Origin: Lucifuga dentata
Taxonomy: Eukaryota > Chordata > Actinopteri > Ophidiiformes > Bythitidae
Length of the DNA stretch: 64,000 nucleotides
Reading direction: 5' to 3'
Assembly: GCA_014773175.1 (NCBI GenBank)
Contig: VXCM01002143.1
Span: 60,696 to 124,695, forward strand
Each line of letters begins with the position of its first letter. Position 1 is the stretch's first letter. The notes beneath the pieces were generated by a model. It was not told where the DNA came from, did not search any database, and saw nothing but the letters and a program-made list of their open reading frames with translations. A program made the translations under genes and the position numbers. This document shows, piece by piece, positions 16,801 to 53,288 of the stretch.

Positions 16801-19601
16801 CTCACTTTAATGATCGCTCTTTCTTCAAAGCTGAATGAGTCTAAACCTGGTTTCATGTGGAGTTTTTAGGTGATTTACTTGATAAAAACTGTCTTAAGCA
16901 GATTTTTCTATACATCAGCAAACCTGAACTTCATGACAGCTGTAGGAGATTCTTTTCACCTTTGTCTTTGTTCTACAAAAATAAATACATAAATAAAATT
17001 TTTTGTGAAATGGCACAATCAGTGATCCAAACATAAATCCCACCATCACAACCAAAAAGGAAAATAGGACTGGAAGCTATCACTCAAAAGTGATCTTCAA
17101 CAGCAACACAAAGTTCTTTATATTTTCCGGTGCTGTAAAAATAGTGATGTTGGTAAACACATCACTGTAACAGGCCAGAATTTTCAGCTTCGATGATATG
17201 ATCAGCTGAGAAACAGTGATTATTATTTTTCAACAAGAAGTCAGTCTCTTGATTTATATCTAATTGAATTTAAGTGGTCAAAAAAAAAAAAAAAAAAAAA
17301 AAAAAAAGACAGACAGACCTGAAGTCAGAATTAGTGATCAGATGTGCTTTTACCATTCATGATATTTACCTTTTAGTCATTGTCATTGTGATCCAATGGA
17401 AATATTTGTTTCCTGTTTTTAAATATGCATCATAAACTGAAACCAACAGAAATCCAGCACATAATCACATCCGATGCTCTGTTTGTTTACGCCTCTGACT
17501 CCTGATGTTTTCTCTGATATCACCTTTCTTGTCCCGCTCTCTTGCTCAGGGAGGCCCCGCTCAGGAGGCCGGCCCCAGCAGTGGTGACCCCTCCCTGCCT
17601 CAGGTCTATGCCCCGCCTCCGTCTTATCCCCCACCATGTCAAGGTCCTCCAACATCTGCAGGCAGACTACCGCCTCTGGATTTCAGCTCCACCCTTCCCA
17701 GCTCAGAGTACCCCGAACATCCTCAGCTCAGAGTTTATCAGGGGCCACAGCTGGAGGGGGTCGAGGCTCTGGCATCCAGTAACACGGTAAGGACAGTTTG
17801 AGATTTTATGACTTTTACATTATGATAAATGACGAGACAAAAATAGGATCAATATGACCTGCATCAGTGAGGTAACCCAGTGACAGTAACTCATCATATC
17901 TCCTATCACACAAACAGATTGGGTTTCCAAGTCCTTCTACATTTAGATTTTAGAGCCTTAGACACCCACCCTCCTCCCCATCCCACCCCCTCCATGGCTG
18001 TATCCATATATGGGAATGCTGTGACACTCAAACTGGTGGTGGTGGAGGGGAGGGGGACGGCTGAGAGTCAGTTTATTAAACTTAAATCCCACTTTTCCTT
18101 CTTTCCTTTGTTTTATTTAGCTGGAGAAACACAGATTATCTGCCACAATAATCTGTGAAGTTGTACTGAAATTTACAGTTAATTAATTTGGAAGTGTAAA
18201 TTATTTTTTCCAGTTCAGAAAATATATAGACTTGTGGGGCAGTAAAAAAAAACAATTAATGTTACAAAAGTGGAATTACTGTTAACTAGTGTTATTGTGT
18301 ACATTTAAAGTCCTAATCTTTATTTTTTACACCATGAAATTTTAGCTAAATTCATATACAGAATGTTAAGCTTCTCTTAAAGAAGAAAATCAGCATTCTG
18401 GGTACAAACTAATCCCATTAGAAATTACAGGTCTGCTTTCCTGTGTTTACTAACAATATGTAAATTTGTTTACATGTATACAAATATTTAACAGCATCAG
18501 AAAATACTGATAACTTAGATCTAGAAGTCCAGCATCTGTGTATTATACACCCTTGCACCAATATAACAGTGATTTCAGGTTTGTGTTCCCTGTTTTATTT
18601 TGTTGATGGGGCTGCATATATTTCTATTTGTATGACAGATTGCAGGATGTTTTTTACTACGTGCTGTAAACAGAGCACATTTTATGAGTAAATATATGTC
18701 GTACGCACTAATGAAATGTCCTTCAGGCATGAAATTGTCCACTGTGTGGATGATTTGTGTGGCAGCTCAGCTCTGCTTCTCTCTTCCTCCTCTCATAACT
18801 GGTCTTTGTGGCCTCATCTATATCCAGTATTCTACTAGAGCCCCTGACTTACAAGGTCCGTGCTGATTTTCGGGGAAAGTTGAGACGGCGCCACGGAGGG
18901 GGGGGTCAAAGGGGGAGGCTGACCAGATGACCCCTTCCCCCTCTGAAATATCGCTCAGGTCCAGAACACAACTTTGCATCGTGACATGACACCACCACCC
19001 AACTCCACCCTGTCCCTGTCCCTGTCCCTGTCCTCCCCACCCCCTCCACCCCACCCCACGCCACCCCACTGTAGCCTGTCTGTTCTGTGTGGGCGGATGT
19101 GATGCTGTGACCTCTGCTGTCTACTGTAGTTAGCCATGGCAAGTCGATGTAGCGTCAAACAGTGGCCTGCGTACGTTTATGTGTTTGTTAAAGGCTCCCC
19201 TGCGTGAATGTGTCCCCCCCCCTCTGCGTCTCATCTCTTTTCTCTGNNNNNNNNNNNNNNNNNNNNNNNNNNNNNNNNNNNNNNNNNNNNNNNNNNNNNN
19301 NNNNNNNNNNNNNNNNNNNNNNNNNNNNNNNNNNNNNNNNNNNNCCCCCCCCACACCATTTGCCTTCTCCCACCCTGTTCTGCCTTCTCCCACCTTCCTG
19401 TTCCAGCTTTTTGCACACCTTCTTTGCCTTGTTTCCGTTGTACTTTGGTTTCGTTTCTCCTTCACTGCTGCACTGAGGCCTTTTCCACTGTTTCCCTGCC
19501 TCTTGGTACTAGAATGCTAATATCAAAGTGTTTGCCTTTACAGTTTTGATTTTCATTAGAATCCACTTTTTCATATGTCATTACTTCTGCAGTTTTCTTT
19601 G

Positions 19602-19656
<55 letters not shown>

Positions 19657-21891
19657 NNACTTTTTTTTTTTTTTTTGCAATGGTTGATGATGCTGGTTGA
19701 CCTACACACATACACTGTACACACGCATACACACACACTAGCATCGTGGTGCATTGTGGGATAGTGAATGTTTTGGTTTTGGCACATTAGTCCTTGAAAT
19801 GTTCTGCATGAGGCAACTGTAATCAGTTTAATATTAGATTACCACAGATTCCTATTTCAGCTGTTCAGATAATATTATAATAAATCCATATAATATTTGC
19901 AATCAGGAAACTTGGAACTGAGTTACAGTCTTTCCAGAGTTTTCAGGGGAACATAAAACTTTATTTTGCCACAGGTGAAGTGAGCATATTTTACTGTGTA
20001 GCAATATGTAATATTTAGATTGGTAAGGTGTGATATATTAGTGGTTAAACTCTTCAAAAGGCATGTATTCAGAGACGCCTCACTAAAACAGAGCCCTTTT
20101 TCACGCCTCCTCACATTTGCCTGAGAAGGATCACTGGTTGCTGAATGCTCTTTGAACTTGGTTTGGATCACTTGACCTCATGAACATGTTTAGTGTTTTG
20201 TCTAATGTGATGTGATGCTTTATGCAACTGAGTTTTACACATAAAAATTCTGAAAGATTTGGTGAATCTGCTGAATTGACTTCTTGATTTTTTCTTTCTT
20301 TCTTTGCCTTTCTACTGATGTCCTCTCCCCATTTTCTTCACACCCACTCTCATCTTTTTTCCATTTTGTTCTCCATCTTTCCTTATTTCCCTGTCTGTTT
20401 TTGTTTGTTTTTCGCCTTCTTTCCTGTGCCTGCTTCCTCTTCTGCTCCTCCTTCTCCTCCTTTTTCATACTTTTGCATTATCAGGATGACACCTTGGCCC
20501 CTGTGACCTCTGACCCCCAGCCTCTGAGTGTATCAGTGTCATCAGGGGGTGGAGCTGGAAGTGGAAGTGAGGAGGAAGGGTCAGGTAAGGCCCAACCCAA
20601 ACGCCTCCATGTCTCCAACATCCCTTTCCGTTTCAGAGACCCAGACCTCCGGCAGATGTTTGGGGTATGTTTGGAATCTCTATTCTGACCTAAAATCCAT
20701 ATGATCATACGGCATCACAAAATATTTATGTAATTTTGGTGTAGTAAATCAGTCCTATTGTGCTGACAAAAAATTCTGACACTTTCAGCAATTTGGCAAG
20801 ATTCTTGATGTAGAAATCATCTTCAATGAGAGGGGGTCAAAGGTCAGTATCACTCAACAGAGACAGAAATGTTATCTGAGCTGAAACTAATTTGAAAAAA
20901 AAAAGTTTTTGAGACCAGCATCATAAATGAATTAGGAGTACGACTGTGTGAACATGCAGGGCTTTGGCTTTGTGACCTTCGAGAGTGCGACAGAAGCTGA
21001 TCGTGCACGAGAAAAGCTGAATGGAACAATTGTAGAAGGAAGGAAGATTGAGGTAAGAGAGAACTTCTAGTCATTTTATAAGCTCATTATGTATTATCAT
21101 TGTCTTAGTGCTGGTCTTTGTTTCCCCAGGTTAATAATGCCACTGCAAGAGTGGTTACCAAAAAGCCTCAGACGCCTCTTGTGAACGGTGAGATTTCAAG
21201 TAAGTCACACCTCATCGATCACCACACATTCTGTACGGGAGTCTTGGGATGTTTTATCATATAGTTTGCTGTAGAAAAGAAAAGCTTCTATTCATTTATC
21301 CTTTCTGTGCAGCTTCTGGATGGAAGATCAACCCTGTCATGGGGGCGATGTACGCACCTGAGCTCTACACAGGTAAGAAACATTCCTCTCTGAAATAATG
21401 TTTTATAATGTTATCAGATCATGTTCATCATACAGTCTTCTTCTGTTTTGTTCATTTAGTTGCCAGTTTTCCGTATCCTGTAGCAACTCCTACCCTGGCC
21501 TATCGGGGCTCTGCACTCCGGGGGCGAGGTCGAGCTGTCTACAACACCATCCGCTCTGCTGCAACCACACCTGCCGCTGTACCCGCCTACCCTGGGTAAG
21601 CCCCACCACCCCAACACCATGCTCCACACCCCATTTATTCAAGGCAAAACATTTCAAGTTTTCACTCATTTTGTTTTTATCAGAGTGGTGTATCAGGATG
21701 GACTGTATGGAACAGAAGTTTATGTATGTATCCACAAACTTTCACACATTTCTTTTGCGAAATCAATAAATTAATTTCAGTTTCCTGGTAATGTTGCTGT
21801 ATTTCTGTTATTTTCTCTGTCAGGGTGGATATCCTGCAGCTTACAGAGTGGCTCAATCAGCATCTGCTGCCACAGCGACCTACAGCGATGG

Positions 21892-21944
<53 letters not shown>

Positions 21945-22862
21945 ACACACAATAATGAATGTTTTCTGACATAAGGAATCAGTGTAAACCTCTGATGTGA
22001 ACATTTTATAGAACAGAAATGGGAAGAGGAATGCATAAGTTCATTTTCATCTGCTATTAGAAATCAATATCTCCTACAAGTAGACGTTTCACAGACAGGC
22101 AAACTTCCAGAAAAGATAAAGGATAAATGAAAAAGCTTTGCACTTCCCTAGAACTTTTTTGGTGTAATTTATCAATATTTCATTTTTTTTTTTTTTTTTT
22201 TTTTACCATTAGCACATGCTGAGCTAACAGTTTTTAATTCCAAGTACATTCAGTGAACATTTATAAGAATATTCCCAGAAGGTTTCCCTGGAGAGTTTTC
22301 ATAGCAGAGGGTAAAAGATGTGGTTCCCTGAAGGATAACATCAAGATCTTATAAGAAAACTTTACTGGGAAACCTTCAGGGAACCTCCCCAAGGTTCTGT
22401 AAATGTTCCATTTTATTATATTACCAAACTAGAACATTCCTTGAGGTACAACCATGAAGGAACATCTCACAGAAACATTCTTGGACCGACATATCAAATT
22501 TTAACAGGTTGTTCAGAGACTAAAATAAATGTTACCACAGAGTAACTCTTAGGGAACATTATGGGAATGCAGAAAGTGGGAATCAAACCCCTAAAAGTAA
22601 AGCAAATGTGCTGTCATGACATGTGTGATGCTTTTACCAGATATGGACGTGTTTACGCCGCGGCAGCAGATCCTTATCACCACTCGGTTGGACCAACAAC
22701 AACATATGGAGTTGGTACAATGGTGAGTTCAAATCCTACAAAACCTCTACTGAGATCTATCTGGTCACACTTGGGTCCAAAACCTGGAGCTTTTCTGTGC
22801 TCTGCTTCTATTTACAGGCCAGTTTGTACAGAGGAGGATACAACCGCTTCACCCCGTACTGA
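13253..22862 (+). CDS. rbfox1l: RNA-binding protein Fox-1 homolog 1-like
   Basis: Splicing regulator that binds (U)GCAUG next to alternative exons, mainly in muscle and neurons (family knowledge). Exons: join(13253..13339,17550..17786,20485..20664,20789..20842,20960..21052,21130..21187,21313..21372,21460..21595,21684..21723,21824..21891,22641..22722,22818..22862). Total 379 aa, GT-AG throughout, with consistent phase. The N-terminus [20 protein letters not shown] is the fish rbfox1l type and fixes the start. The RRM spans about residues 147-223, with RNP2 LHVSNI (149-154) and RNP1 GFGFVTF (187-193). A Calcitonin-gene-type Ala/Tyr/Gly-rich C-terminal region follows and ends [14 protein letters not shown]. 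Intron 1 is 4.2 kb and intron 2 contains the assembly gap. Exon 6 has a second in-frame donor 12 nt downstream, and a (CA)n run abuts the exon 10 donor. Confidence 0.95.
13340..17549 (+). other. rbfox1l intron 1, no gene seen
   Basis: A 4.2-kb AT-rich intron. It contains a (GT)n microsatellite at 13809-13842 and a poly-A run at 17281-17307. No coding exon or RNA gene was recognised on either strand. Confidence 0.6.
19247..19344. other. Assembly gap in rbfox1l intron 2
   Basis: A run of 98 N bases flanked by C-rich sequence (CCCCCCCC on both sides), followed by a poly-T tract at about 19604-19676 with two more Ns at 19657-19658. ORFs across it are meaningless. The true missing length is unknown. 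Confidence 0.95.
21893..21942 (+). repeat. (CA)n microsatellite at the rbfox1l exon 10 donor
   Basis: About 24 CA units begin inside the 5' splice site itself: exon ...GATGG|GTACACACA. CA repeats close to donors are known binding sites for hnRNP L, so length variation here could influence exon inclusion (inference). Confidence 0.85.
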
Positions 22863-25800
<2,938 letters not shown>

Positions 25801-50979: not shown

Positions 50980-53288
50980 CTATGGCAACAGCCACCAATA
51001 CAGTCTAAATAGCAAGGGGCTCCAGACAGAAGCAGAATATGAGAGGGACAGTGTGCCACTGTTTGAAGGCAGCTGCGTAATGTCCATCATCATCTTCTCA
51101 CTCAGTTCTTCCTCCAAGCTGCTGATAGCTCGGGTGGTTAAGAGTCGGGCTCTGGAGGGACCATACTCCTTCTTTTCAACAAGAGAGGGGGGCAAAGTGG
51201 GGAGGGGACATGTTTGAATTGAAGCTGAGCACCCAACCTTGAGCCACCGGGTAAAAAGCTCTGAAGTTAGACTGAGGAGTTCTTCTGGAGAGGAATGGGT
51301 CAAGGAGAAGCGGGCCAGATCTGTCTCCTCCTGGAATCTCTGTGAGGCAAATTGAAACAAGAGGATTTAGAGCAAACAAACATTTGCAATAGAAAGGAAG
51401 AGAGCGGTTCCAAGATCCACTTTTCAATGATCTACAAGAAAACAACTCCGATTGAGCTCCACATAAGCTCTTCAAATGATTTTAATAAATAATTCAAAAA
51501 GTGTTATCAGTGCAGTAAGCAATTACATGTCAAGTAATCAGAGATAGTTCAGGCTACAAGTTTATTTGAGGGACTAACTCTCTTTAAAACAACCAGAAAG
51601 TTGTCTTGTGAAGACAGGACAAATTTATGAGTAATAACACACTAAAGTTGTATTTGTTATGTAACATTGCTTGAATTCTTAAGAAACTTTACCTCTGTAT
51701 GTTTGTTCTTCTTTATAATTTTTTCCAGTGTTTGCTTTATATCGAGGATTAATGAGTGATTCAGGTGCTCATGCCAGAGATTTCTGAGCAGCACATGCCA
51801 GGAGTCCAGCAAGACGACTGCAGCAGGAAACACGCAGCACTGGAGGGAACGGTAGAACAAGCACTCAAGTTACATTTAGCTCGTCTGAGTAAAACCGAGA
51901 CTGAAAGCTACAAGGAGGATAGTACATTTTGTAAAGGATGCATAAATGTCCTTAACTGATGACATAAACTGTGGTTTCATAGTTGAAAGGGTCACACTGA
52001 GTATTTACCACAGACAGCTGTAAATAATATGAAAGCTAAAGGCTATACTGTCATCAAACCCCCTAAATGTCTTATAAAACTGATGTAAAGGAAAATTGTA
52101 AGACTTATGATCCAGTTTAAATGCAGATCAAACATTGTGAACTCACCGGCTCAGTGTCACAGAGCATGCTTTTTGTATAGTGATGCACAACATTGTAATC
52201 TTTAGGAAATACCATCCGCTAGAAGAAAAATGGAGACAGAAAGAGATGAGAATAAACCCACAGATTAAGAGACAGCTCAGTGGTTCATTATATATTTCAG
52301 TTTATTAAGAAAACCTAAAGTAACTACAAAGATGAATCTACCTAGAATCCTCTTAAGGTTTATGCCATATATATATATATATATATATATGAATCAATAA
52401 TGTTTGACTATAATGAGACTAATAATGAGACTATAATGACTGTAATTCTTTGCAAGTTATCAGATGAGAAGGCAGAGCAGACACTTTGTTCATTCAGTCA
52501 GTTTATCATTTAGATATATGTCTGAAAACTAGATCTCCACCCTCTGACCATCTTCATGCATTAATTAACTAAATGCCTGAACATAATCAAGACAAGTGAT
52601 TGTGGTTTTTAAAGGACATGTGGTATCTCAGGCCTTGGTTGACAAAATATCACTCTTACAGACAGGAACACTGATGGTTTAGAAACAACTAAAGACTGAC
52701 TCACAGCAAGCTGTGTGTACACTTAGAGGACTACGCTGTATCCACAAGAAGTCTGTTAACTTACAAATCCAGTAGGATTGGAGTCGATTGTCGTTTTAAT
52801 GTTTTTCACACCTTCCCAGTCAAAGTCACATCCACCACATTGGACAGTCAAGAATGATAGCAACAACAAAACTATTAGAGACATAATGAGAAAGAGAGGG
52901 GTGGACACAGAGCACATTCAGATAATTGCTGGAAACTTTTTGTGGTTTGTACCGTGTTCAAACCGCATGCCTACTAAGAAACATTACATCATTTCCTGCT
53001 TCAATTAGCTATTTATACAAAAAAAACAAAACAAAACAAAAAAAAAAAACCAAAAAAAAAACCAACACTGTCTATTACCTACTGGAGAAAAAACTCCAAT
53101 ATGTTTTAACACACTGGAGATATATCTTTAAAATGACAAGCTAAGACAACTAATTAGTTTAAAACACAGATAATCACCTCTATACAATAGCCACTTCTGA
53201 CTATTATTTTCCAAAAGATTTTAAAAATCAAATCTGCAAAGAGCATTATTCTGCACTAAAGTTCTTGTTTCTCACCTGGCAGTGACAT
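50980..53288 (-). CDS. flt3lg: Short-chain four-helix cytokine, Flt3-ligand-like
   Basis: Predicted secreted haematopoietic cytokine of the FLT3LG/KITLG/CSF1 class. Exons (complement): join(50980..51339,51693..51839,52147..52218,52765..52871,53276..53288), all GT-AG with chained phase, 232 aa (human FLT3LG is 235). MSLPVLLLLSFLTVQC is a signal peptide. Cysteines lie at 16, 19, 60, 65, 66, 150 and 157. FPKDY (44-48) recalls the Kit-ligand helix A region; FSLTHSSPEELLSLTSEL with W145 resembles the FLT3LG helix D region, followed by C150 and C157. N91-H-S is a possible N-glycosylation site. The C-terminus is hydrophobic (SPLLFRLYWWLLP), perhaps a membrane or GPI signal. Human FLT3LG is on 19q13.33 like GRWD1, which favours FLT3LG over KITLG. 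An alternative start is ATG 52884 without the first splice. The symbol is tentative. Confidence 0.58.

Follow-up and report, generated by a model that had tools for sequence, protein, structure and literature searches.

The stretch of DNA analysed here, referred to as the window, comprises 64,000 nucleotides of contig VXCM01002143.1 from the fish Lucifuga dentata (GCA_014773175.1; positions 60,696 to 124,695 of the forward strand). On its minus strand, at 53288..50980, lies a gene that a first-pass annotation, made from the letters alone, had described as a divergent cytokine resembling Flt3 ligand (FLT3LG) or Kit ligand (KITLG, also called stem cell factor, SCF). We found that this gene is real and that it has numerous relatives in other fishes. 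It is conserved, and what it encodes seems to have escaped notice until now.

Gene model and relatives

The gene consists of five exons with 232 codons and a stop, intron phases of 1, 0, 0 and 0, and introns of 404, 546, 307 and 353 bp that all have gt...ag borders (Table 1). The five phase-consistent exons and the 232-residue product proposed at first are all present on the minus strand, and relatives support exon 1, of which the coding part is delimited. In the relatives P0006 and P0013, an upstream leader runs into MSLPVLLLL (the text reads '...LRKIKRMSLPVLLLL'), which fits a 13-nt exon 1 of the window spliced to position 52871. The N-terminal MSLPV is found in 62 of 94 aligned relatives and MSL in 78. 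An alternative start at ATG 52917 within exon 2, giving a 243-residue model, was rejected, as relatives begin with MSLPV by way of exon 1. The splice junctions are also backed indirectly by short, transcript-like contigs from relatives. Twenty-five of the 120 listed relatives come solely from the source 'lgn', which we read as contigs assembled from sequencing runs, the longest contigs measuring 1,172-3,183 bp. Since 20 of the 25 do not reach the 2,309 bp that the gene spans in the genome, they look like spliced transcripts. A tblastn search of the window for a tandem copy brought up, below E 0.5, nothing but the exons of the gene itself.

How widely is this gene conserved? A search of 5.8 billion proteins at E<=10, with the 243-residue model starting at ATG 52917 as query, matched 163 proteins, far above chance. 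Among the best 120, which were listed, the top match has 83% identity (E 7.1e-125); Genypterus blacodes, a cusk-eel, and Perca flavescens, a perch, are among the closest listed, at 83%, and the listed rows include medaka LOC110016677. From the listed matches we built an alignment of 94 sequences (A2), leaving out most fragments and 5'-extended rows, in which local identity to the window protein ranges from 55 to 83%. The named hosts of the listed relatives are, as far as recognised, acanthomorph teleosts, from opah and cods through percomorphs; the host lineage was checked for three relatives. With a 20-sequence profile as query there were 176 matches (best 120 listed). A third search, restricted to a length of about 231 residues and above, produced 42 matches, none weaker than E 2.3e-42; many of these rows are unnamed, and no non-acanthomorph member was recognised by name among the 42.

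In the 120 listed rows of the 163 matches, the relatives are labelled uncharacterized, hypothetical or unnamed, and no row carries a Pfam domain. The name many of them bear is zgc:174888, an uncharacterized teleost protein to which these rows assign neither function nor family, and which we take to be the same gene; its zebrafish member is known here by name alone. One orthologue, P0106 from Mugil cephalus, is labelled 'protein Shroom4 isoform X2'. Its first exon is read in a different frame and spliced past exon 2, and the label is apparently a misannotation.

Table 1. Features of the candidate cytokine gene, followed by the genes identified around it in the window
Feature	Position in window	Strand	Description
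Exon 1, coding part	53276..53288	-	13 nt; MSLP and first base of V5; donor gtgaga after 53276
Exon 2	52765..52871	-	107 nt; residues 5-40: remaining signal peptide, Cys16, Cys19, helix A; splice sites; tblastn 100%
Exon 3	52147..52218	-	72 nt, in frame; residues 41-64: FPKDY segment, Cys60
Exon 4	51693..51839	-	147 nt; residues 65-113: Cys65-Cys66, helices B and C, sequon Asn91
Exon 5	50980..51339	-	360 nt; residues 114-232: C-D region, helix D, Cys150, Cys157, stalk, hydrophobic C-terminus, stop
Stalk motif PSRARLLTTRAI	51124..51159	-	residues 174-185; mean majority fraction 0.91 vs 0.78 and 0.58 in the flanks
Hydrophobic C-terminal end SVWSPLLFRLYWWLLP	50983..51030	-	residues 217-232; putative anchor, glycosylphosphatidylinositol (GPI)-like or a membrane segment without a tail
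MBOAT7	one side of the gene		match to 8ERC, E 2.6e-48
S4/S9 ribosomal protein	same side as MBOAT7		Pfam; RPS9 by reading
SAC3/GANP protein	same side as MBOAT7		below the Pfam cut-off; LENG8-like by reading
CDC42 effector	same side as MBOAT7		Pfam
WD40 protein with acidic start	same side as MBOAT7		GRWD1 by reading; best PDB matches RBBP4
Folliculin	opposite side of the gene		

Predicted fold and profile similarity

AlphaFold models of two relatives predict a short-chain four-helix bundle in which two short strands occupy 50-52 and 127-129. When these models were compared with known structures using Foldseek, SCF (KITLG) chains occupied ranks 1-15 for one model and ranks 1-14 for the other. CSF1, IL-34 and FLT3LG structures also superpose on the models, and FLT3LG is absent among the 50 Foldseek rows listed, an absence compatible with such a fold. 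A four-helix bundle, as expected from the first description of the gene, is predicted for both relatives modelled, and the two predicted models resemble the fold of class III receptor tyrosine kinase ligands.

The window protein taken singly had no match in PDB and none to a Pfam cytokine family. A profile search of PDB at E<=10 gave five matches, of which three are SCF (E 0.15-0.20), and the longest SCF alignment spans from upstream of the PKDY motif to past Cys138. When 20 relatives were compared with Pfam, a single one matched the SCF model (E 0.024). The two remaining PDB matches, a GH62 hydrolase (E 0.16) and PWT8 (E 2.3), were taken as chance, as was a Pfam zinc-finger match around two cysteines in 9 of the 20 members (best E 0.0021); in the window protein the latter covers residues 25-44 and scores 13.2 bits against a cut-off of 27.

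Direct comparisons with hhalign gave the ectodomain profile a score of 33.7 against human and mouse KITLG, and none of 150 shuffles did as well, the best reaching 21.4. Against human FLT3LG the score was 22.2, equalled by 1 of 150 shuffles. KITLG compared directly with FLT3LG scores only 12.6, and the profile appears to carry a faint trace of FLT3LG that is lacking in KITLG. The hhalign probability for KITLG was 67.9% with the 20-row alignment (A1) and 65.6% with the 94-row alignment (A2); for FLT3LG it was 18.2% and 4.5%, respectively. CSF1 and IL-34, unlike these two, show no similarity to the window protein beyond that of shuffles, which equalled their scores in 39 and 61 of 150 cases. Profile search and predicted bundle both back the original description of an Flt3/Kit ligand-type cytokine. 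We consider it very likely that the protein is a ligand of the class III receptor-kinase type (the family of KITLG, FLT3LG, CSF1 and IL34).

Cysteines, stalk and C-terminus

The signal peptide, the FPKDY segment, the SPEELLSLTSEL helix D-like segment, the single N-glycosylation sequon and the hydrophobic C-terminus reported in the first pass are all present. The sequon, placed at Asn91 by reading, is kept in 88 of 94 relatives. Six cysteines are nearly invariant in the same alignment: C65 and C157 are retained in 94/94, C19 and C60 in 93/94, and C66 and C150 in 92/94. In the profile alignment, Cys65, with which exon 4 opens, falls on SCF Cys43, and Cys157 falls on SCF Cys138; a predicted C65-C157 bond would correspond to the SCF Cys43-Cys138 pair. 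The first-pass annotation had seen no obvious counterpart of the mid-protein cysteine pair of the mammalian ligands. This does not hold for Cys43-Cys138, both members of which align, but it does hold for Cys4-Cys89, whose second member is absent: between residues 66 and 144 the alignment of the 94 relatives has no column of cysteines, and Cys144 occurs in only two.

A C19-C150 bond may have replaced SCF Cys4-Cys89. This bond is suggested because P0090 has lost both cysteines together. Weighing against it, P0022 has lost C150 but kept C19 and gained C23, and P0085 has lost C60 alone. Moreover, in both gadid sequences, P0103 and P0110, Cys66 is replaced by Ser and helix D has gained Cys144, possibly a rewired disulfide. 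Each of these cysteine-loss patterns rests on one or two rows.

The resemblance to KITLG (PDB 1EXZ, 1SCF, 2O26) extends to the predicted fold, the PKDY segment and the positions of Cys43 and Cys138. However, the window protein has no counterpart of Cys89, and it has six conserved ectodomain cysteines where KITLG has four. With FLT3LG (PDB 1ETE, 3QS7, 7NBI) the cysteine positions correspond in part only, and the window protein lacks the type I transmembrane tail of that ligand. The published account of zebrafish kitla and kitlb, on chromosomes 25 and 4, includes an exon 3 that encodes residues 41-59 and can be lost in frame, and a transmembrane domain in exon 7 (PMC1781495). Exon 3 of the window gene likewise begins at residue 41 and is in frame, the exon layouts having been compared at that border only. 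Unlike KITLG, the window gene has no transmembrane exon 7 and no cytoplasmic exons, and its stop codon lies in exon 5.

The conservation of the stalk motif PSRARLLTTRAI (0.91) is on a par with that of the folded core (0.73-0.93 by segment across 94 relatives) despite low values of the predicted local distance difference test (pLDDT) and predicted disorder. Our guess is that it could be a shedding site. Beyond the stalk, all 94 relatives have nine or fewer residues after their most hydrophobic 15-residue stretch, and none (0/94) has a transmembrane segment plus a cytoplasmic tail. The mean hydropathy of that stretch has a median of 1.2 and a range of 0.7-2.4, and the last 15 residues contain no charge in 21 relatives, one in 66 and two in 7. 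In the window protein, the small residues SNSGT lie about 10 residues upstream of the hydrophobic stretch, which is the layout of a GPI signal.

Genomic neighbourhood and the choice of ligand

To place the gene among its neighbours, ten open reading frames (ORFs) of the window were scanned with Pfam, and six were assigned a family. The neighbours on the MBOAT7 side are presumably genes of human 19q13.3-13.4, as is FLT3LG; FLCN lies on 17p. These neighbours are not known to be those of KITLG. The neighbourhood supports FLT3LG without settling orthology.

Some side observations concern the window and the databases. The PDB chain 7qwq_O, a 500-residue mammalian 'ribosomal protein L13a', includes a complete FLT3LG ectodomain and looks like a database fusion of the adjoining FLT3LG and RPL13A genes. 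Visual inspection of ORFs at 17499-22914 on the plus strand suggested an RNA-binding protein of the RBFOX family; the single one of them compared with Pfam was assigned to no family. Neither an Rfam scan nor a tRNA scan of the window yielded any match. There are ten runs of N in the window, five of which are single Ns (31238, 41691, 45476, 55833 and 60584) between exact copies of 61-66 bp; these sites look like overlaps left unresolved in the assembly, with sequence duplicated as a result. One of them lies inside the CDC42 effector ORF, and none lies in the cytokine gene.

Is this the Flt3 ligand that bony fishes were said to lack? In passages of papers from 2018-2019, FLT3L is called missing from fishes. 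According to a 2018 review, zebrafish potentially lack flt3l, perhaps owing to divergence, and the gene is present in Latimeria and elephant shark (PMC6306437). In the main text of PMC3466250, which that review cites for elephant shark flt3l, no word starts with 'flt3'; the sequence data of that paper may be the basis of the statement. Other published passages attribute two kit ligands to each of zebrafish, fugu, medaka and stickleback (PMC1781495), IL-34 and M-CSF genes to fish, and to fish also an Flt3 receptor whose ligand they treat as unreported. In open-licence PMC text, our literature search turned up neither a title nor an abstract in which this gene is called a cytokine or an FLT3LG is reported from a teleost.

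We lean, by a modest preference, towards the protein being the teleost FLT3LG orthologue, with Flt3 as its most likely receptor. We favour FLT3LG because of the location of the gene and by elimination: kitla, kitlb, IL-34 and M-CSF are known, and Flt3 is without a ligand. A fuller proposal, that this is the missing teleost FLT3LG, intermediate between mammalian KITLG and FLT3LG in sequence and exon layout but set apart from both by a GPI anchor on the producing cell and by release at the stalk motif, is tentative and rather unlikely to be right in every part. Several points weigh against these assignments. The sequence profile, as aligned, is nearer KITLG than FLT3LG, and direct FLT3LG neighbours such as RPL13A were not seen among the neighbours identified. 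The moderate hydropathy of the tails and the charge present in most of them speak against a typical GPI signal, and we regard an anchored protein as slightly less probable because the hydropathy is only moderate.

The same balance of evidence raises the question of whether this is an additional Kit-ligand-type gene, an old KITLG paralogue that would act through Kita or Kitb. KITLG is the closest family both by profile and by Foldseek, and the exon 3 border agrees with that of the zebrafish kit ligands. We nevertheless find this doubtful. Two kit ligands are already known in each of the four fishes named above, and the databases give the present gene a different zebrafish-derived name. The gene has neither the transmembrane and cytoplasmic exons nor SCF Cys89, its neighbours are not known to be those of KITLG, and the faint FLT3LG signal in its profile is absent from KITLG.

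It is improbable that the protein belongs to a different class of helical cytokines (IL-2/IL-7/TSLP, TPO/EPO or similar) and signals via a cytokine receptor instead of a receptor tyrosine kinase. Thirteen such cytokines lack profile similarity to it: the scores of TSLP, TPO, IL-15, IL-7, IL-21, IL-3, IL-5 and G-CSF are equalled by 17-96 of 100 shuffles, and GH, EPO, IL-2, IL-4 and GM-CSF, like four reversed controls, have hhalign probabilities of at most 1.7%. Kinship with TSLP/IL-7, hinted at by an N-terminal CDF motif, proved no better than shuffles and was rejected.

We give very little credence to a secreted or surface protein with some other role that merely has a common bundle fold: the function of the protein is predicted only, and a passage of a 2025 network analysis of heat-stressed bass brain places zgc:174888 among ribosome-biogenesis hub genes (PMC12610153), but the signal peptide, conserved cysteines and sequon suit an extracellular protein, and fold, profile and exon layout converge on one family. 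The hub label is ill-suited to this protein and would better suit its neighbour GRWD1; it is perhaps a mapping error.

On the reading that we favour, the gene product enters the secretory pathway and folds into a short-chain four-helix bundle with one end closed by cysteines. The hydrophobic C-terminus would probably keep the cytokine on the producing cell, through either a GPI-like anchor or a membrane segment that lacks a tail, and cleavage at the conserved stalk motif may release it. The cytokine would probably dimerise and bridge two receptor molecules, the receptor most likely being Flt3.

Flt3 ligand is a driver of both blood progenitors and dendritic cells in mammals. A named candidate across acanthomorph fishes makes the question of the missing fish Flt3 ligand directly testable, and it could supply fish immunologists with a factor for dendritic cell culture. 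Moreover, a class III kinase ligand encoded without transmembrane and cytoplasmic exons would, if true, represent an unusual form of signal presentation.
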